Virus record (IMG/VR): IMGVR_UViG_3300028610_001825
Coordinates: 1-24,515 of that record
DNA length: 24,515 bases
From: a virus
Strand: one strand, 5' to 3'
Positions 362 through 24,515 of this stretch are shown one piece after another; position 1 is the stretch's first letter, and each line of letters opens with the position of its first letter. Both the position numbers and the translations under genes were made by a program. The notes below the pieces were generated by a model. It had not been told where the DNA came from. It searched no databases and worked only from the letters and a program-made list of their open reading frames with translations.

Positions 362-1116
362 TGGTTACCACCCACCTGTCCAACATGGTTCCTGGAAACC
401 AACGTCTGGTCCACCCTGACTCTGTTGTTTGTGGTTTCGCAGAGACCGAGATCACTGGCGTCACCAACAACGCTGATATCTGGGCTGGGTCTGGAGCTGC
501 TGCCATCCAGCCCGAACCTGACACTGGAGGCTATGCCATCTTCGTGAAGTCTTCGGATGCAACCGATAACTTGACCGGAGTTGGTGTCCGAACAGTGGAG
601 GTTCATTACCTGGATACAGCAGGGCTCGAACAATCGGTCAGCGTCGACCTCAATGGAGTAACCGAAGTCGACTCTGGTGTGACAGATTGCATGTTCGTGC
701 AGGATCATCACGCCACAGCAGTCGGTACTACCCTCGTCTCTGTGGGCACTGTAGATTGCCTGGCAGGTTCTGCCGGAGCTGTCGTCAGTCGAATTCCCAT
801 AGCAGGAAACCAATCTCTGTCAACGATGTTCCAGGTTCCTGCTGGTAAGAAGCTGATCATCACCGGATGGTTGGCTGCTGGTGTGGCAAGCACAGTCAAG
901 ATCGCTACCCTCCGTCTCCGTACCAGTTCCCATGGGGAGGTGAGTGCTCCAGGCATTTACCACTTCATCAACAGCACTCGGGTCAAGGATTTCGCAGGCC
1001 CGTGGATCCCCATGAACAAGGAGATCCCGGCACTAGCCTGCGTCAAAATCTCGGCATGGACTGATGGCACAATCTCCCTTTCTGCTCAGTGGTGTGGGCA
1101 ATTAGAGAACGTCTGA
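361..1116 (+). CDS. Putative phage structural protein with C-terminal beta-sandwich
   Basis: This 251-aa protein has no membrane segment or catalytic motif and is dominated by short beta strands with Gly/Thr/Val turns. Residues ~145-251 contain a pattern (FQVPAGKKLIITGW, then LRLRTSSHGE and PGIYHF) that I associate with a beta-sandwich found in phage virion proteins, where a VPAGK-x-xxIT strand precedes a TRP/LRLRT-type strand. The start at 361 overlaps the upstream stop (TAATG) and is preceded by GGGGAGA at 347-353. An in-frame ATG at 340 lies inside the upstream gene and has no good ribosome site. A head decoration or tail-appendage component is the best guess; the exact place in the virion is unknown. 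Confidence 0.72.
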   Translation: MVTTHLSNMVPGNQRLVHPDSVVCGFAETEITGVTNNADIWAGSGAAAIQPEPDTGGYAIFVKSSDATDNLTGVGVRTVEVHYLDTAGLEQSVSVDLNGVTEVDSGVTDCMFVQDHHATAVGTTLVSVGTVDCLAGSAGAVVSRIPIAGNQSLSTMFQVPAGKKLIITGWLAAGVASTVKIATLRLRTSSHGEVSAPGIYHFINSTRVKDFAGPWIPMNKEIPALACVKISAWTDGTISLSAQWCGQLENV

Positions 1117-1128
1117 GGAGACTGAGCA

Positions 1129-2082
1129 ATGCCTAATATGTTATCCAACATGATCCCACCTGGGCCTGGACATGAAAGTGGTGTTCAGTTTGGAATAACA
1201 GGTAGTGACCCCGCATACTCCGAGGGTCTTCTATTCTATGATAACCATCATGGTTCTCTAGGTTTTTACAATGAAGAAGCTGGTATCACTTTACAGATTG
1301 GCCAAGAACAGTGGATCAGGGTTCGAAATAACTCAGGAGTAGATATTGCTGATGGTGCAGCAGTCTATATCAGTGGAGCAATAAGTGATAATCCAACCAT
1401 AGAATTAGCCAAAGCTGATAATATTACTACTGCTCATGTTATTGGTATTGCCACACATGTCATTGAAAACAATACGGTTGGTTATGTGACAGTCGCTGGA
1501 CTTGTCCACAACCTTGACACTAGTTCATTTTCAGCCGGTGATACAATGTATATCAGTTCAACGGTTGCTGGTGATCTCGTTGATACTGCTCCGACTGGGG
1601 ATAATTATAGCGTCTCCGTTGGGACTATCACTCGATCTCATCCTACCGATGGAGCACTTCTTGTCCATCCAGATCAAATTCTACCCTTGACAGCAGGTAC
1701 ATTCGCTGCTCTCGCCTCAGCTCCATCCTATCGCCAACAGGCGGCAGCCAGTGATGAAGTGACAGAACTTGCTATCCTGGTTGGAGCAGTGACCTTCCGT
1801 GCCGAGACAGCATTCAGTCTCACAAGCATACGAGCCTCACTTAAGACTGCAAGCACGACCGGAGTCGTCACTGTCAATGTCAAGAAGAACGGAACCACGG
1901 TGTTCTCTACGCTCTTGACGATCGACCAGGACGAGAAGACCAGTGTGACTGCGGCTGTACCAGCGGTACTGACTACTACACCGACCGCAGTAGCCGATGA
2001 TGATGAGATCACCATCGACATCGATGGAGCTGGAGTAGGAGCCTATGGACTGAAGGTGTTGCTGCTTGGCAATATCACATGA
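1129..2082 (+). CDS. Modular phage fibre/appendage-like structural protein
   Basis: This 317-aa protein has two visible parts. Residues ~15-187 match a repeat-like module common in phage structural proteins: GLLFYDNHHGSLGFYNEE, GQEQWIRVRNNSGV, VIGIATHVIENNTVGYVTV and FSAGDTMYISST. Residues ~190-317 form a separate beta-sandwich (TAFSLTSIRASL, TVNVKKNGTTVF, DDDEITIDIDGAGVG) that I associate with tail-fibre tip or receptor-facing domains. GAGGAGA at 1116-1122 precedes the ATG. The 3' end overlaps the next start (ATGA, 2079-2082). The first part is visibly more AT-rich than the second, which suggests a mosaic origin. Likely a virion surface or appendage protein; receptor binding is possible but not shown. 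Confidence 0.8.
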   Translation: MPNMLSNMIPPGPGHESGVQFGITGSDPAYSEGLLFYDNHHGSLGFYNEEAGITLQIGQEQWIRVRNNSGVDIADGAAVYISGAISDNPTIELAKADNITTAHVIGIATHVIENNTVGYVTVAGLVHNLDTSSFSAGDTMYISSTVAGDLVDTAPTGDNYSVSVGTITRSHPTDGALLVHPDQILPLTAGTFAALASAPSYRQQAAASDEVTELAILVGAVTFRAETAFSLTSIRASLKTASTTGVVTVNVKKNGTTVFSTLLTIDQDEKTSVTAAVPAVLTTTPTAVADDDEITIDIDGAGVGAYGLKVLLLGNIT

Positions 2083-2807
2083 GCTTTCTGATAAACCCCT
2101 ACACATTTGGGGTAGCAGGCCCTCCAGCTTGGACTCCCGCTTCTCTTTTTGAAAGCAGCGAACTCGGGGTTTACTACGATCCCTCTGTTCTCTCATCGAT
2201 TTGGCAGGACAGTGATCGAACTGTAGCCGGAGCAGTTGACAGCCCAGTGGGAGCCATGGATGACCTATCCGGCAACGGCAATCATGCCCTCCAAACTGTA
2301 GACGTTTCACGCCCAATACTGAGACTGTCAGGTGGTAAATATCATCTGGAATGTGATGGCGTAGACGATGGTCTTCTATTTGGAACTCTTGCAGCTATGG
2401 GTACGGGAGCCGAAATGTGTTTCGGCATACAAAGCACAAAAACAACATGGCTATTTATATCCAGATTAGGAACCAGTAGCCCTCTTATTCCTATTGCTCA
2501 AGATGGATCCAGTTCTCCGAATACTGCTGGTGCTGGTGCCCCAACCATACTGGTGGATAGAGCTGCTCTTGCATCCAACGATAGAAACGGAGTACATGAT
2601 GCAGTGACTTCGGCAAATTCAAAAGTAGTCACAATTCATACTGTCGATCTCACACTACTGACAACAGGTGAAATAGCTGGTGCTGGAAGTGGTTTCGAAT
2701 TTGGTGGAAAGATCCACAGTTGTGTGATTGTTCCAGGTTTGTCTGCCGAAAATAGGGCACTGCTCGAAGACTGGACAGCACTGAAATCAGGAGTCACCTT
2801 GCCATGA
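2079..2807 (+). CDS. LamG/concanavalin-like phage surface protein
   Basis: The 242-aa product has features typical of phage LamG-like (concanavalin-fold) surface proteins: ELGVYYDPSVLSSIWQDSD near residue 30, then MDDLSGNGNHALQ followed by RPIL, and YHLECDGVDDGLLF around residue 90. The DLSGNGNHA motif is the usual hallmark of these domains. LSAENRALLEDWTALKSG near the C-terminus is also typical of their last strand and helix. The start overlaps the stop of the preceding gene (ATGA) and has only a weak ribosome site, so translational coupling is likely. The role is probably a fibre or capsid-attached protein that may bind carbohydrate. The ligand cannot be read from the sequence. Confidence 0.78.
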   Translation: MSFLINPYTFGVAGPPAWTPASLFESSELGVYYDPSVLSSIWQDSDRTVAGAVDSPVGAMDDLSGNGNHALQTVDVSRPILRLSGGKYHLECDGVDDGLLFGTLAAMGTGAEMCFGIQSTKTTWLFISRLGTSSPLIPIAQDGSSSPNTAGAGAPTILVDRAALASNDRNGVHDAVTSANSKVVTIHTVDLTLLTTGEIAGAGSGFEFGGKIHSCVIVPGLSAENRALLEDWTALKSGVTLP

Positions 2808-3187
2808 CCTATGTGAAATCCCTCACCATGGTGGTAACAATAGCCGACCGTGACAACGCCAATAAGTTAATGCGTGGTCTGGGTCGTGATGTCTCACCCA
2901 ATCCAGGGAATACGTTTTCAGTGGAACTCAATCTGGATGGGGACAATCAACGAGCTGTCTCTCACTACGCAGCCCATGGCTGGGACGATGCGTTAGTGGA
3001 CATCCTGACCACCCTCACCTTGCCCGGAGGTATTGATTGGTCTCGTGTCGGTCTGACTCAGGTAGAGGCACAGAACGCATTGAACTCAATCAGGTTTTCT
3101 GCCATTGAAAACCGAACACCTTTGATGAATTTCAATATCGCAGTGGCAATCGAAGGAGTGGAACGAGTCAGACGATCCGTAGGTTAG
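2804..3187 (+). CDS. Hypothetical protein, last of the appendage gene cluster
   Basis: This is a 127-aa protein I do not recognise. It has a mixed alpha/beta look: an N-terminal beta strand (KSLTMVVTIADR), a segment GRDVSPNPGNTFSVELNLDG, a tryptophan/histidine patch AAHGWDDALV, and a C-terminal strand with basic residues (VAIEGVERVRRSVG). There are no membrane segments or catalytic motifs. It starts inside the previous stop (ATGA, 2804-2807) and has AGGAG about 10 nt upstream, so it is well supported as a gene. Its operon position suggests an accessory virion protein or a chaperone for the fibre-like proteins; this is contextual inference. Confidence 0.7.
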   Translation: MTYVKSLTMVVTIADRDNANKLMRGLGRDVSPNPGNTFSVELNLDGDNQRAVSHYAAHGWDDALVDILTTLTLPGGIDWSRVGLTQVEAQNALNSIRFSAIENRTPLMNFNIAVAIEGVERVRRSVG

Positions 3188-3202
3188 ATAGCAATCGCTA
3201 TT
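3187..3202. repeat. Short hairpin just upstream of a promoter
   Basis: ATAGC (3188-3192) pairs with GCTAT (3197-3201) around the loop AATC, with a possible G-T closing pair at 3187/3202. It starts at the stop codon of the gene ending at 3187, and its right edge touches the -35 element at 3201-3206. The stem is too short and lacks a T-run, so it is not a confident terminator. It may be an operator or incidental. Confidence 0.35.
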
Positions 3203-3229
3203 GACTGAACGGGGCTCTCAGGATATAGA
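3201..3229 (+). promoter_or_regulatory. Candidate sigma70-type promoter for the 234-aa structural gene
   Basis: TTGACT at 3201-3206 matches five of six bases of the -35 consensus. A 17-bp spacer leads to TATAGA at 3224-3229 (TATA plus a weaker tail) as the -10. Transcription would begin near 3236-3238, about 30 nt before the ATG at 3268. The following gene has a near-perfect Shine-Dalgarno (AGGAGGA, 3253-3259) and is closed by a strong terminator, which fits a dedicated strong transcript. N4 late genes are known to use host RNA polymerase, so a host-type promoter is plausible. No experimental support is available here. Confidence 0.55.
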
Positions 3230-3267
3230 TTTTCGAAATTCATCGATCGAGCAGGAGGAATATATCC

Positions 3268-3972
3268 ATGACCGTACATCCCTATAACCTCAACTTCCAG
3301 AATCACGCCATCACGGCAGCAGCCTACGTCAATGTGGCTCACCGGGATGCGGACCTTGCCTGGCAGGCCACGAAGAACCTGAACAAGGTTGCCTTCGTCG
3401 AAGACATTGCCTCCTACCAGGTTCTGGTTTCGTTGAACCCCACCGTCTGGCACACTTTGGGTGCCGGTAGTCAGACCGCTGCGGCTGGTGTTGGCATCAC
3501 CGCTGGTGTGAATACTCTGTTCGGTTCCGGCGTGACCCGTGTAGGCTCGATGTTCAAAACCGAGATTATCATCGACATGGATGGTCTCCACTCCACGAAT
3601 ACCGATGACGACATCATCGGTGTCGAGGGTGTTGGTGCCGCCAGTTTGGGTCAGATCCTCGCTGGTCTGAACGGCACAATCTTCATGGGCCGAATGACCT
3701 GTATCGAACTACCCGCTGGCGGTCAGCCGGATATCGCCCTCTGGGCAGCCGACGAAGCCACAGGCGTCGAAGACACGTTGATCACCGCTTTGACCAACCA
3801 GGTCGAGCTGCTCCAGTCGCAGGGCGATGGCACTGCTTGGGCTGCTGGTGATGTCATCAACATTCCCGTCTTCGCTGGTGAAGCCCAGTATCTTTATCTG
3901 GTCTCCGATGGTGCCATCACCGATGGTGAGTATACGGCAGGCAAGTTCCTGATCGAGTTCTGGGGCGTCTGA
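3268..3972 (+). CDS. Phage structural protein, probably abundant, own transcription unit
   Basis: This 234-aa protein has no membrane segment and a beta-rich C-terminal half. Residues ~145-234 contain PAGGQPDIALWAADEATG, DTLITALTNQVELL, QYLYLVSDGAITDGEY and a final FLIEFWGV strand, a pattern I associate with virion proteins (decoration or fibre type) of podoviruses. It sits between a sigma70-like promoter, an AGGAGGA ribosome site with 8-nt spacing, and an intrinsic terminator. Its codons are strongly biased to C-ending forms (GTC, ATC, GAC, AAC), unlike the more AT-rich genes before it. Both features suggest high expression. It is short for a major capsid protein, so an abundant decoration or appendage protein is my preferred reading. 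Confidence 0.78.
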   Translation: MTVHPYNLNFQNHAITAAAYVNVAHRDADLAWQATKNLNKVAFVEDIASYQVLVSLNPTVWHTLGAGSQTAAAGVGITAGVNTLFGSGVTRVGSMFKTEIIIDMDGLHSTNTDDDIIGVEGVGAASLGQILAGLNGTIFMGRMTCIELPAGGQPDIALWAADEATGVEDTLITALTNQVELLQSQGDGTAWAAGDVINIPVFAGEAQYLYLVSDGAITDGEYTAGKFLIEFWGV

Positions 3973-17947: not shown

Positions 17948-17962
17948 GAATTCTCCTTCCCT
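17935..17962. terminator. Bidirectional hairpin between convergent genes
   Basis: AGGGAAGGA (17935-17943) pairs with TCCTTCCCT (17954-17962) around a 10-nt loop that contains the palindrome GAGAATTCTC in part. The plus-strand stop TGA (17945-17947) is in the loop, and the minus-strand stop (17963-17961) is in the right arm. No T-run follows on the plus strand, and only TTT appears on the minus strand. It may terminate both transcripts weakly or protect their 3' ends. Confidence 0.6.
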
Positions 17963-20900
17963 ATTCCCAATCACTCATCTGAGCCCAGGGGTTCAGAGAA
18001 GGGGCACCGAACAACATGTCCCAACCAAGAGCGTAATCAAGACGATCCTGTGCATGAACAGTCACCAGGTTATCGTTAACAGGCGAACCAAATTCACCAA
18101 CGGTGCCTGCTGTGATCATAGCTCTCACCGGATTATCCCTCAAAATACTCATTGCGATTTTCATCACCCGGATCTTGAAGGACAGGAACCATGTCCCGCC
18201 AAGACTCTCAAGATATGACCTTGTGCGACCCGGAAGAACGGAGAAGTTCACATACTCTTCGTTGATTTTCTTCATGGCTGTATCTGCATCCATGCCCTGA
18301 CCCAATAGGTGATCATACATGATCGCCTTGGCAAGAAAATCACCATACTGAACCGCTTTATTCGCAGCCTTATAGATGGTTGTGTCCTTCGAAATGAACG
18401 CATACTTCGTTATAGTCTGCAACTTCGGAGGAAGCTTGTTCACCTGACCCTCCAACCACTCTGCCATACGACCACTGGTCAGCTCAACGTCCAGATCAGT
18501 GATACCCTCCGAGATGTTCTTGTAAGCACCAGCTTCAATCAACGGAGCAATGCTCATGCGAGCATTCTCATCCAGGATCACCTGGTACTGCTGCTGCAAG
18601 ATAGATTTCCGATTGGCGTTGTTGCCAGCCAGGGCGATACGAGTATCCAGCTCAAGCAACTTCGTCTTGTTGACATTGAACCTCTCAATCTCAGCCAACT
18701 TGTCACGGTAGCCTTTAATCATAGTCTTGTAAGGCACGCCTCGTGTGGCGAGCTGAAACACATTCGCTTGCATATTCATGTAGGGCACGATCAACGACCG
18801 AACAATGATAAGGTCTTTGGCACTCGATACGACGCCCTGTACGGCCTCCTCAGAGCGAGAGAGGATGGTTACGGCGCGATCACCCATCAAAAGCTTGGTG
18901 GCCGCCTGTACGGCTATTTGAGCCGCTTTGGGCATACGGGTCTTTCCTGTCCACACATCGACGATGGAGGGATCACGATAACCAAGAGCCAGGTTGACCA
19001 TATCCTTGCGAACCGGGAAGCCATCAGCCTCTCCGAAGATATCCTCGATCGCTGCTTTGGTATGCGGAGAGATCACTCGCCAGCTATCCTTGTAGACCTG
19101 ATCCTTGAGTTTCGGATTGCTGATGTCGACGAACAATCCCTCATCTCCGGGCCCACGATTGTCCCAGATCTTTTTCAGCTCAATCACTAGCTCGGTATTA
19201 TACTGATCAGCGAGTTTCTCCTCCACCTGACGACCAGCCCAGGCACCCAGCATGAGGGCCAAGTTGGACCTCGGCTTGGTATACTGCTCCAGCACATCGG
19301 GGTTGATGGCTCGCTCATAGAAGATCACCCCAGTTTCGTCATAAACTGGGATCAGAACTTCCTTATCGTTTACCACACCCGTGCCATCGTTCAGGGACTT
19401 GGTTGCTTCCAGAGAACCTTCCGCTGAGAGGACACCAGACGTGGCTCCAGAGATGGTCAAACCAGAGTGGGCGTTCACCCCACGGTAGGAGCCTTGAACT
19501 GTCTGGAGAGCACCCTGAGAGTAGGAGCCACCCTGCTTCACCGTGGTAGTGTAGTACCCACGGCTCACTGAGGAAAACTTGCTCTCGGCAGTATAATCAC
19601 CCACCCGAGTAAAGCCCATCCGGATCAACTCATCACCCTTGCTGTCATCCTCGATGATCAAACGAGCATTGGTGGTTCCATGGTCAGGCACCCAACCCTT
19701 GTATCCGTTCATACGAGCACTCTCGGAGACGATCTTGAGATCCTCCTCGATGTTCAGGGCCTGCATGTAGGTAACCAGGTTCTTGGTAGCCTCGGTATCG
19801 TTGTCATACATCTCAGCGATCGTGTCTTTCTGAGCCTGGTCAGCAATCTCCAGAGCGTAGAGCGAAACCAGGGTATCGATGGCCGCTGTCATCTTGGCAT
19901 CATACTCGCCACCCAGCCTGTTTATGGCGTAGGCATTCTTCCAAAGCTGGTGCCCAGCTCCCTTGCCATTCATGAAGCTTGCGAGCTGCTTGGCCTTCTC
20001 CAGAATGGTATCAGCCACTGCCTTGGAGAAGGCTGCATTGATCTCGACTTCTTTGGCAGCAGTCTTGGAACTCAGCAATCCACTGTCAGTGAGCAGATCA
20101 AAAGCACGCTCAGGATTGCCCAGGTCAAACAGGTTGGCGAAGTCCAGTTTACCGAGGATCCTGTGGGCAGCTTTCCACTGGTCAGCATCCGGATGGTTCT
20201 CGAAAGCATTCTGGAAAATGATCGGCATATCTTCCTTCAGATCCTGACGGATGGCCTGGATTGCATAGTTGGCTCGATCCTGAATTTGCATGACCTCTGC
20301 GTTGGTTTTGTCTGTGCCCACGATCTCCGTAACGAACTCACGGAAAAACACAAAGTGATCGAGACTGGCACCCATGTGGGTAAGCCGTTTGATACCCTGC
20401 ACAGCAACTTCAGAACGCTGAGCATCGATAAATGCAGCGGCTCCAGACACAGTACCGACAAGGATCTTGGTCAGAGCAGAGCGATCGCTCGCCTGCATTC
20501 GACGATCGACCTCAGCAGCACGTTCGGCCAGCTTGCTCATTGCACCACTGACATAGTTGTCGGCCCTGGTGATGGAACCCATGAGATCACGCAGGAGAGA
20601 GAACTCCTTGTCAGTATCCTCACGGAGCAGGTTCTCAGCCAATACGTCCAGCAGCTCCTTTGCATTTCCATCTGAAGTGTCGATGGTGCCGATGGCCTTG
20701 TTCATCATCATGCCTGTGATCGAGGTCAGGAACGCATTGAGAGTTCCAGCGTTCAGCTTGTTGTCTGTTTCGGGCTCAGGGAGCTGATCCAATGCCTCAC
20801 GGAACTTTTTACTCGTCTGGCTTAGAGCCAGCAGAACTGCCATGGCGTCGGTCACACTTTCATCGTTCTTCGTATCACCCAGTAGATCCCGGACGGTTGC

Positions 20901-23900
20901 ATAAAGCTCCTGACCCAGCTTACCCGGACCAAACATCTCGGGGGTCAGGTTGTCGGTGACGTACTCGAACACCTTGTTCATAGCGATCGAGGACTGAGTA
21001 TTCAGACGCATCTCCATGGCTAGAACCATATGGATCGCCTTGAAGGTCTGCTTCTGGTAATCGCTCAGAACGAACCCACCGAAGTCCAGCTTGATTACTG
21101 CGTTTTTCGCAGCATCTTGATACCGGACAAACTGGTCTGTGCGAGCAATCCGATCAGTCCCAGACCTAAGATCTTCAAGCCGGGCTTTGACCAGATCAAT
21201 CCAGAAGTTGGTGAAATTATGCGCCGAAGGAGTGAGCCCTCCACCGGAGTTTCCGTTGTCGTTGTTGTCTCCATTTCCACCACCATCTTCTCCATTACCC
21301 TTGTCTCCGCCTTTGTCGATCGGACTGTCATTGATGATGGCCGTGTTGAACAAAATGTTGGAAAACATATTCGTGGGAACCTTGCCCAAGATGCGACGCA
21401 TCAGGGCTTTGACTGTTTTGGCCAGCTTGGTCAGAATAGTTTCTTTCTTCAGGCCCTTGATCAGAGCTTCGTTGGTCAGGGTCCAAGCCATGAACTCGTT
21501 CAGAGCAGCAGCCTGGTTGAACGGGGTGGCATCGATCTGGTAGCCGAGGATCTGGGCCTTGGCAGAGTTGGCCGCATTACGCAGGGCAGCCCCCTTATCG
21601 GAGAAATCCATGTCCATGAACTGCTCCATCAGAGTTTCCAAACGGGACACGGCATCGTTGTTGGTTCCCTCGTAGTGGGCCAGCACCGCCTCAAACGTGG
21701 CCAAGTGCATCATTTCATGGGCCAGGGTCTCATGATTGTTGTCAGTCAAATAGATCACCTTAGCCTCCAGATCGACCATACCCTTGGAATGGGGCAGTGC
21801 CTCACCACGATAGCTCTCCAGTTGTCCGATAGTCCCAATCACTACTTTGTAGTTCTCGGTCAGGAGATCACGCAGAACCCGAACAGTGTCCCGAACACCC
21901 TTGTTGCGAGTCTCCTGGAGCAAGGAAACCAGCAGAGTATCTGTGTCGGTTTCGAGGATCGGCTGTCCCTCGGGAATTGCAGCGGGCTCAGTAATATCTC
22001 GACCCAATAGCTCATTCTCGATGAGATTGTTGATCTCAGCGAGAGTCATCTCTCCGTCGGGGCCACGAGTATATGCACTGTCGGATCCACCCATATGGTC
22101 AACCGAAAGGGGCACACTCCGGAAAGCTTTCTTCCGAGCCAGGTTCTGACGACGTTGCTCTTGAAGAGCCTCCATCAATTCCTGAACATCTTTGGCAGTA
22201 ACCGAGGACTTGCCGGAGTTTTCAGCAACCTGATTGAAGGCAGTCGTGAGTATATCGGCATCGTCTCCGACCATGCTGAGGAAGTTTTCGAAGTCGGCCA
22301 CGATGTCACCCAGTACATCACGATCCCAGTTCTGCATTACCGCGCCATTGATACGATCAGCATACTCTTTGACCTTGTTGATGGGCATATCGATACCATC
22401 AAACACCGGGAGAGTGTCTGCGGGAGCGTCTTTTGAACTGTAGATTGTGTTCATCATCATGGCATCACCACGTCCAATCGAGACGTAGGGAATGATCTTC
22501 ACACCTGCAACGTCGGGTGCAGGCAAGGTGGACTTCATACGCATGTTGCCACTCATGTTTGAGGACAACTCGATATCGCTCACCTGACCAGAGAACGATC
22601 CGACGGCCAAGGTCTGAGTGCCGTTCGAGTACAGGGGAGCATACGCCTTCAACTCTGCAACCAGAGCATCGTAATCGCTCTGGGAGAGTTGACGGATGAT
22701 CGGCTGACCCTTCTTGTTACGCTCGATTTTGCCCTCGGTAGCGCGCTTCTCAGCCAGCTCCAGAAGACGTTTCTGGAACAGCTCCTGAAGGAATTCAGTC
22801 TGGACGTTGGTGACGAAAACCAGGGTATCATTCACGCCGATGATCGGAGCACCAATCACACTCTTGGCTGTGGTTGCAACCATTTCGCCGATACCATCAC
22901 CGATGATATCCTTGAAGACACCCATGGAATTGCCGTCAATAAACGAGTCTTTCCAGTTTACATTACTCGGATACCTTGTCCCGAAGAGAAGCTCAAAGTC
23001 TGCGATCAGATCCGGGTAACCAAGGAAAGCAGCAGGGTCGGTCCCCTCAGGAACATCTACCATTCTATTGTAGAATTCCAGAACCATCTCCTCAGCAATA
23101 CCACTTGCGACACCACGTATACCAGATCCATAGACCGTCTTGGTCATCGGGTTCTTGGCAGTATTACGGGTCATCTCAATGGTGCCCCTATCCGTGATAC
23201 GGAAGTCACCAAAGATCGCGGCAAACCTTGCAGCAGCATACAGAACCTTTTTCTCATTGGGACCGGCCTTGGCGATCTCGGAGAACATACGCCTCTGGGC
23301 CCGGTCAGCAGTCACCTGATAAAGGTCGACGTTCCCGCCAGAGAAGAACCGGTTCAGGGTCTTGAATTTCGTTCCAAGGAAGAACCCAACACGCTGGAAG
23401 TTGTTCATATCCTCTGGGGTCACTTTACCTTGGCCGAAGTTGCTCATCATATTGGCCGGACCATCGGTCTTGCCATCAAGCTCAAAGCTCAAGCTGGTCT
23501 CGAACTTGGTCTTGTCCGTGGTATGATTGAAGTCTGCCACAGCGAACAGTGCGTTCAACTGGGCCATCTCCAGTTCCCCAGTGAGAGCGAAGAGGGCATC
23601 AGCATCCAGAACACCACTGGTGAGGTAGGCTTCGATCAGTTCCACGGCCTCACCATACTTGGCGGTAAAGTCATCCTGGATACGGGACAGGATACTCTGG
23701 TGAGCCTCATTCTCAACCTTGGCCAGATCAGAAGCCTGAGCAACTGTCAGCCAGAAGGCATCAGCATCTTCCTGGTTCGTCATGTCCAAGGTGGAATGTG
23801 TGGGGGTCACCAGAGCCCGAAGGATCTTGTTGTTCTGAGGGTTGATGCCCTTAAACTGGTGTCGACCAACCTTGGAAATACCCACAGGGTAGTAGACCGG

Positions 23901-24515
23901 AGTATCTTCACGACCTTCCAGTTCAGCTAGTACAGCCTGTGCATCATCCCAGTCCCGCTCGATGGAGAGGTTCTTGCCCTCAATGGAGCTGCGGAGAGGA
24001 TGGTTTTTCGTCAACTCTGAGACATCCCGGAAACCGAGCATCTTGGAGATGACATCAAATCCAATGGCCTTGGCCAGATCGGAGATACCCTTGGCCTTTG
24101 TGTGAGGAGTGTCCTGCATGGCCTTCAAGGCAGCTCGTTCGATCCTGGAAAGCTTCACATTCCCTCGGCTCTGGGTGCGATCGGTGGCTTCGATCTTCTC
24201 CCCAATGGAGGGGGTAGTATTCTCCTCCGGGGCGAGGAGTTTCTGAACCGAGTTCTGACCGCTGAGTCCAATATCCTTTTGGATCGGCTGAAGCTTCCTG
24301 ACGTTGATGGTAGGCGTTGTCACCTTCTTGCCATCCTTGATCACCGGGACATCGTTGATATCGAGAAACTCGAATTTGACATCCAGTACAGTGAGCATCT
24401 CTTTGACGAGACCTTCGACAGCTCCCCGAGCATCGACGAGCTGAGCATCAGAGTTAGCTTCGACGTTCCACATACGAATGATCTGCTTTGCCAGAACCTC
24501 TGATGCCTGACGGGG
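17961..24515 (-). CDS. Giant N4-like virion RNA polymerase, partial at window edge
   Basis: The reading frame stays open to base 24515, so the true start is outside. Numbering from the first Met in the window (24473), the T7/N4 RNA polymerase signatures are: SKVGR with R204 (the T/DxxGR motif); motif A LDGKTDGP with D333; motif B RNTAKNPMTKTVYG with R436, K440, Y448 and G449 at exactly T7 spacing; motif C PVFDGIDM with D692, where the His of T7's HD is Phe. HETLAHEMMH follows (H919, E920, H923), a zincin HExxH. A Gly/Asn/Asp-rich linker spans ~1052-1082. The last ~1,090 residues are mainly helical, ending in ...SDWE, perhaps for encapsidation. In N4 this protein is packaged and injected to transcribe early genes from hairpin promoters. 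Confidence 0.88.
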   Translation of the reverse strand, partial: PRQASEVLAKQIIRMWNVEANSDAQLVDARGAVEGLVKEMLTVLDVKFEFLDINDVPVIKDGKKVTTPTINVRKLQPIQKDIGLSGQNSVQKLLAPEENTTPSIGEKIEATDRTQSRGNVKLSRIERAALKAMQDTPHTKAKGISDLAKAIGFDVISKMLGFRDVSELTKNHPLRSSIEGKNLSIERDWDDAQAVLAELEGREDTPVYYPVGISKVGRHQFKGINPQNNKILRALVTPTHSTLDMTNQEDADAFWLTVAQASDLAKVENEAHQSILSRIQDDFTAKYGEAVELIEAYLTSGVLDADALFALTGELEMAQLNALFAVADFNHTTDKTKFETSLSFELDGKTDGPANMMSNFGQGKVTPEDMNNFQRVGFFLGTKFKTLNRFFSGGNVDLYQVTADRAQRRMFSEIAKAGPNEKKVLYAAARFAAIFGDFRITDRGTIEMTRNTAKNPMTKTVYGSGIRGVASGIAEEMVLEFYNRMVDVPEGTDPAAFLGYPDLIADFELLFGTRYPSNVNWKDSFIDGNSMGVFKDIIGDGIGEMVATTAKSVIGAPIIGVNDTLVFVTNVQTEFLQELFQKRLLELAEKRATEGKIERNKKGQPIIRQLSQSDYDALVAELKAYAPLYSNGTQTLAVGSFSGQVSDIELSSNMSGNMRMKSTLPAPDVAGVKIIPYVSIGRGDAMMMNTIYSSKDAPADTLPVFDGIDMPINKVKEYADRINGAVMQNWDRDVLGDIVADFENFLSMVGDDADILTTAFNQVAENSGKSSVTAKDVQELMEALQEQRRQNLARKKAFRSVPLSVDHMGGSDSAYTRGPDGEMTLAEINNLIENELLGRDITEPAAIPEGQPILETDTDTLLVSLLQETRNKGVRDTVRVLRDLLTENYKVVIGTIGQLESYRGEALPHSKGMVDLEAKVIYLTDNNHETLAHEMMHLATFEAVLAHYEGTNNDAVSRLETLMEQFMDMDFSDKGAALRNAANSAKAQILGYQIDATPFNQAAALNEFMAWTLTNEALIKGLKKETILTKLAKTVKALMRRILGKVPTNMFSNILFNTAIINDSPIDKGGDKGNGEDGGGNGDNNDNGNSGGGLTPSAHNFTNFWIDLVKARLEDLRSGTDRIARTDQFVRYQDAAKNAVIKLDFGGFVLSDYQKQTFKAIHMVLAMEMRLNTQSSIAMNKVFEYVTDNLTPEMFGPGKLGQELYATVRDLLGDTKNDESVTDAMAVLLALSQTSKKFREALDQLPEPETDNKLNAGTLNAFLTSITGMMMNKAIGTIDTSDGNAKELLDVLAENLLREDTDKEFSLLRDLMGSITRADNYVSGAMSKLAERAAEVDRRMQASDRSALTKILVGTVSGAAAFIDAQRSEVAVQGIKRLTHMGASLDHFVFFREFVTEIVGTDKTNAEVMQIQDRANYAIQAIRQDLKEDMPIIFQNAFENHPDADQWKAAHRILGKLDFANLFDLGNPERAFDLLTDSGLLSSKTAAKEVEINAAFSKAVADTILEKAKQLASFMNGKGAGHQLWKNAYAINRLGGEYDAKMTAAIDTLVSLYALEIADQAQKDTIAEMYDNDTEATKNLVTYMQALNIEEDLKIVSESARMNGYKGWVPDHGTTNARLIIEDDSKGDELIRMGFTRVGDYTAESKFSSVSRGYYTTTVKQGGSYSQGALQTVQGSYRGVNAHSGLTISGATSGVLSAEGSLEATKSLNDGTGVVNDKEVLIPVYDETGVIFYERAINPDVLEQYTKPRSNLALMLGAWAGRQVEEKLADQYNTELVIELKKIWDNRGPGDEGLFVDISNPKLKDQVYKDSWRVISPHTKAAIEDIFGEADGFPVRKDMVNLALGYRDPSIVDVWTGKTRMPKAAQIAVQAATKLLMGDRAVTILSRSEEAVQGVVSSAKDLIIVRSLIVPYMNMQANVFQLATRGVPYKTMIKGYRDKLAEIERFNVNKTKLLELDTRIALAGNNANRKSILQQQYQVILDENARMSIAPLIEAGAYKNISEGITDLDVELTSGRMAEWLEGQVNKLPPKLQTITKYAFISKDTTIYKAANKAVQYGDFLAKAIMYDHLLGQGMDADTAMKKINEEYVNFSVLPGRTRSYLESLGGTWFLSFKIRVMKIAMSILRDNPVRAMITAGTVGEFGSPVNDNLVTVHAQDRLDYALGWDMLFGAPSLNPWAQMSDWE

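Follow-up and report, generated by a model that had tools for sequence, protein, structure and literature searches.

The window analyzed here, the whole stretch of DNA under study, is a virus record of 24,515 nucleotides (IMG/VR IMGVR_UViG_3300028610_001825). Its plus strand encodes an N4-type replication set (ribonucleotide reductase, helicase, DNA polymerase, exonuclease, primase, a Sak4-like protein, and SSB), and its minus strand carries, at positions 17961 to 24515, a virion RNA polymerase (vRNAP) gene whose 5' end is missing. The placement of vRNAP on one strand and replication genes on the other is common to N4 and Ruegeria phage V13. The vRNAP frame comprises 2,184 open codons without a stop, bearing out the preliminary description of RNA polymerase motifs and an HExxH motif joined in one uninterrupted frame. 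The best PHROG match is PHROG 2206, virion RNA polymerase (E = 0), which aligns over profile positions 1100 to 3404 of 3406. Because the frame runs unbroken to the edge of the record and the profile match begins only at position 1100, the true start of the gene lies outside the contig; about 1,100 N-terminal residues are probably missing beyond the contig end. It follows that residue numbering from position 24473, introduced in the preliminary description and kept here, is an arbitrary convention. All residues named in that description are found where it placed them, but position 24473 is an internal methionine, the first ATG in frame, and the gene starts elsewhere. We conclude that the 3' two thirds of a vRNAP gene of the Schitoviridae (the N4-like, N4 gp50 family) lie within the window.

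The encoded protein is matched by 462 phage records, the best of which are Rhodovirinae roseophages at 35 to 40% identity. Ruegeria phage V13, Sulfitobacter phage EE36phi1, and Roseovarius Plymouth podovirus 1 (RPP1) align over the window's whole chain at 37 to 40% identity. An assembly or frame artifact fusing two genes was considered and rejected, as 219 phage records match at least 80% of the chain that is present. The chain begins with the part of the T7-like single-subunit RNA polymerase domain that lies within the record (22089 to 24515, minus strand), for which three Pfam models, vRNAP_dom (130 bits), N4_RNAP_helical, and vRNAP_dom_2, score above cut-off. All four polymerase motifs noted earlier (R204, D333, R436/K440/Y448, and D692) are present and arranged as in Schitoviridae vRNAPs. 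The TxxGR-type motif reads KVGR (R204; 23862 to 23873, minus strand) and aligns with RVGR of N4, motif A reads FELD (D333; 23475 to 23486, minus strand), motif B reads RNTAKNPMTKTVYGSG (R436/K440/Y448; 23121 to 23168, minus strand), and motif C reads VFDGIDM (D692; 22386 to 22406, minus strand). In an alignment of 14 vRNAPs, 23 columns of the RNA polymerase are invariant, among them the Asp of motif A, the Arg, Lys, and Tyr of motif B, and the Asp of motif C.

The C1 domain (residues 833 to 1053; 21315 to 21977, minus strand), delimited by a structural match to N4 gp50 and by an AlphaFold model, immediately follows the polymerase domain and is itself followed by the C-terminal helical region C2 (17961 to 21314, minus strand). 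As in other Schitoviridae vRNAPs, the C-terminal domain (CTD) exceeds 1,000 residues, and residues 896 to 2166 match that of N4 gp50 (591 bits). The preliminary description placed a strand, VIYLTDN, ahead of the sequence HETLAHEMMH, and both are there: the edge strand occupies residues 906 to 912 (21738 to 21758, minus strand) and HETLAHEMMH residues 914 to 923, ending in HEMMH (21705 to 21719, minus strand), in which H919 and H923 are predicted to bind zinc and E920 to act as the general base. A third ligand had been sought downstream of H923, and alignment of relatives points to E993 (21495 to 21497, minus strand), which lies in a helix with the sequence NEFMAW.

Conservation of these residues is nearly complete. 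In a sample of vRNAPs taken at all ranks of the phage-record matches, out to the remotest Vibrio phages, together with seven viral contigs, HExxH occurs at the equivalent place in every protein. A viral-contig search made with a single stretch around C1 returned only seven close relatives. When 29 diverse C1 domains (mean identity, 22%) are aligned, the sole invariant columns are the H, E, and H of the motif, the downstream E, and one N. The E993 column is invariant in two alignments and played no part in choosing the rows of either: in A1 the rows were centered on HE..H, which every sampled vRNAP had at that place, and in A4 they were chosen for E...HE..H, which leaves the invariant third Glu as the one independent observation in that alignment. 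A census of 113 distinct C1 domains (at <99% identity), recruited with whole-vRNAP, RNA polymerase, or C1-region queries and mostly with the RNA polymerase without C1, extends the comparison of H919, E920, and H923 to other N4-like vRNAPs: 111 of the 113 keep HExxH together with the downstream E. At the third-ligand position, all 138 loci with HExxH have Glu, and the loci without it have Ala. The census left out the locus of Shigella phage pSb-1 (L081), whose frame is split right after HExxH, and two others (L065 and L109) stop short of C1. The pSb-1 record annotates two hypothetical proteins at the split, which may reflect either a sequencing error or a real frameshift.

The AlphaFold model of C1, built on 60 sequences, is confident (mean pLDDT of 85.2, and >90 through the active-site region). 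It contains a small sheet and the order strand-strand-HExxH helix-E helix, with a strand at model residues 113 to 116, HExxH in a helix at 121 to 141, and E993 (model residue 200) in a helix at 191 to 207; the strand and active-site helix expected of a zincin are thus both predicted. Foldseek places the N4 vRNAP first (E = 2e-8) and anthrax lethal factor next (E = 0.085, probability of 0.60). With VIA-align, model residues 40 to 260 superpose on N4 gp50 residues 2127 to 2351 with a Z score of 10.7. The catalytic domain of lethal factor (residues 587 to 778) gives a Z of 7.0 (4.5 Å over 152 residues) and the PPEP peptidases a Z of 5.5, values below 8 that may mean a common arrangement only, a Z of 7 being within reach of unrelated folds. 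Lethal factor and the PPEP peptidases resemble C1 in having the zincin fold with HExxH and a Glu in a later helix, but sequence similarity to them is not significant, and a sequence search with C1 gave no lethal factor match. No Pfam family, including SprT-like and MPTase-PolyVal, scores above cut-off on C1 of the window (the best is SprT-like, at 15.9 bits against a cut-off of 25.6), a miss that is compatible with kinship.

Taken together, residue conservation, the confident model, and the matches to N4 C1 and lethal factor support the earlier proposal of a zincin fused to a virion RNA polymerase. We are highly confident that C1 is a zinc metallopeptidase of the gluzincin type, in which H919, H923, and E993 would bind the metal and E920 would serve as general base; this confidence attaches to the identity of the domain and to neither the timing nor the substrate of its action. 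That the HExxH might instead be fortuitous, or belong to a nonpeptidase fold such as that of the alpha-ketoglutarate HExxH enzymes, is very improbable. Bellis et al. (PMC12633501) point out that radical SAM enzymes can also have HExxH and cite fused radical SAM/aKG-HExxH proteins. Against such a reading stand family-wide conservation, a model that resembles lethal factor and has a Glu downstream, and an expectation of only 0.017 HExxH in 2,170 residues of the window's composition. Chance occurrence as such was rejected in view of that expectation and of the same location of the motif in all relatives except one clade.

The fusion itself is not new. The preliminary description took a zincin in the N4 polymerase to be undescribed, but Iyer et al. 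reported in 2017 that the N4 gp50 vRNAP carries a metallopeptidase (MPTase) of the zincin superfamily, always fused to N4-like RNA polymerases, and linked it to lethal factor with HHpred (PMC5512222). The assignment was repeated in 2021 for N4 and Pectobacterium phage CB1 (PMC8472413), and the cryo-EM preprint of Bellis et al. in 2025 resolves the zincin region of N4 gp50 as domain C1, residues 2124 to 2375 (PMC12633501). The fusion is nearly universal in N4-like phages, and the window therefore contributes one more divergent member. Coliphage N4 gp50 (PDB 9pnr, 9pnt, and 11fw; PMC12633501) has the same RNAP-C1-C2 order, a matching fold, and an equivalent active site (HExxH at 2228 to 2232 and the third Glu at 2310), although the two C1 domains are only about 29% identical and the N-terminal region of the window protein lies beyond the contig end. 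The MPTases of polyvalent proteins (PMC5512222) likewise combine a HEXXH helix with a Glu helix and show no substantive difference from C1, and the C1 site is intact in V13, EE36phi1, and RPP1. What is new here is the co-conservation of E993 and a clade in which the active site has been lost naturally.

That clade consists of two loci (L039 and L040) from two metagenomes, 85% identical in the C1 region. In both, an in-frame deletion has taken out the HExxH helix along with the strand, and Ala stands at the third-ligand position; the C1 regions without the active-site half span residues 2040 to 2320 of L039 and 2073 to 2353 of L040, and neither locus contains any Ns. The joint loss of HExxH and the third Glu supports the assignment of ligands. 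Both proteins retain the RNA polymerase, the CTD, the second, helical half of C1, and a zincin with HExxH farther upstream. We consider that the C1 active site was lost as a unit, probably once, with the scaffold kept. Loss of H919, E920, and H923 in relatives had been named beforehand as a sign against a zincin; such loss does exist, but it is confined to this single clade. Retention of the helical half after loss of the active site suggests that this half may have a separate structural role.

These two loci also bear on whether C1 is an enzyme at all. It might hold a structural zinc or be a pseudoenzyme scaffold that clasps the CTD to the RNA polymerase and aids packaging, without catalysis, and shedding of the catalytic half while the helical half was kept is in line with this. 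However, the Glu of HExxH binds no metal in zincins. Across the 111 divergent sequences, E920 nevertheless varies no more than the ligands do, which argues for catalysis rather than a structural zinc. In the tight complex of N4, C1 does touch the RNA polymerase, D2012 to R2279 (PMC12633501), as a scaffold would, but on balance we regard a purely structural C1 as distinctly unlikely. The papers that we consulted report no zinc site or activity for any vRNAP.

As to what the peptidase might do, two proposals in the preliminary description, namely, maturation of the giant protein and cutting of a host factor, are not new; Iyer et al. had already suggested host-factor cutting and self-cutting after injection (PMC5512222). 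Maturation of the giant protein, or of other virion proteins, in the head before ejection has a precedent in DdrB of phage P1, a polyvalent protein with an MPTase that is cut before packaging (PMC5512222). In N4, however, the vRNAP is packaged unprocessed even though packaging requires the MPTase-bearing region (PMC5512222, citing older work), and recombinant full-length gp50, once purified, gave no evidence of degradation (PMC12633501). Packaging of an uncut chain makes maturation in the virion improbable, and we disfavor it.

We lean slightly toward action after ejection. The whole vRNAP chain, which others report to be packaged and ejected intact in N4, would then deliver a C1 peptidase into the host, where its target would be either a host protein or the vRNAP that carries it. 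Of these targets we favor the first, in that a host protein is a reasonable candidate, though one that we hold with less than even confidence, and cutting of the vRNAP itself is unlikely. Self-cutting after ejection is conceivable because the N4 CTD inhibits the RNA polymerase, promoter binding gives no release, and the RNAP-C1 linker of 22 to 23 residues is disordered (PMC12633501). In its most specific form, a cut in this flexible linker would relieve the inhibition that the CTD exerts on the polymerase of the same chain. Yet full-length N4 vRNAP stays whole when purified, a loose state observed without cleavage has been proposed to be the active one (PMC12633501), and the clade that lost the C1 active site retains both RNA polymerase and CTD, so that cleavage by C1 is not universal; release by linker cutting is accordingly as doubtful as the scaffold reading. 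More speculatively, and with slightly less confidence than in either of those, the zincin could be a timer that, once injected, switches on early transcription by cutting either a host factor or the RNAP-CTD linker of its own chain, with an upstream M90-type zincin sharing or replacing this job in roseophage-like relatives and letting one clade delete the C1 site. A full catalytic set conserved family-wide, set beside a clade that has lost all of it, offers a clean comparison for the substrate question in N4.

A zincin of C1 type also occurs in a protein without a polymerase. A profile search with C1 retrieved PDB chain 9sfn_G (E = 4e-17), a phage internal virion protein with HEAVH and KELVAWGLT, whose segment is nearly identical to gp37 of phiKMV and LKD16. 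Like the window protein, phiKMV gp37 thus combines a C1-type zincin with an internal virion location; unlike it, gp37 has the annotation of an internal core protein bearing an endolysin domain, lacks a polymerase, and belongs to a phage of another family. Literature searches returned no paper that describes phiKMV gp37 as a metallopeptidase; those on zincin-bearing ejection proteins yielded nothing besides the N4 papers. That internal virion proteins carry C1-type zincins whether or not they contain an RNA polymerase fits a role in ejection or in the early host better than one in transcription chemistry, and we infer such a role.

Other vRNAPs carry additional zincins. Many roseophage-like vRNAPs have a second one (HExxHxxD, later mostly a SELFAE-like sequence) just before the RNA polymerase, as seen in V13, EE36phi1, and RPP1; the window ends short of that region. 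Its position is residue 1087 in L003, 1427 in L004, 1084 in L006, 1294 in L017, and 1343 in L018, and it is also found in L033, L036, L039, L040, L049, L050, L052, L053, L055, L059, L066, L069, L085, and L087. The second zincins of L003 and L017 score above the Pfam Peptidase_M90 cut-off, and a clade in which Asp follows HEXXH at a distance of three residues is described by Iyer et al. (PMC5512222). Another upstream HExxH type lies near the M90-like site in L008 (EHELQH, residue 1287), L043 (AHELEH, residue 1100), and L074 (EHEFQH, residue 1196). Vibrio phage phi 1 (L015) has two C1-like HExxH domains in tandem after the RNA polymerase, at residues 1950 and 2185.
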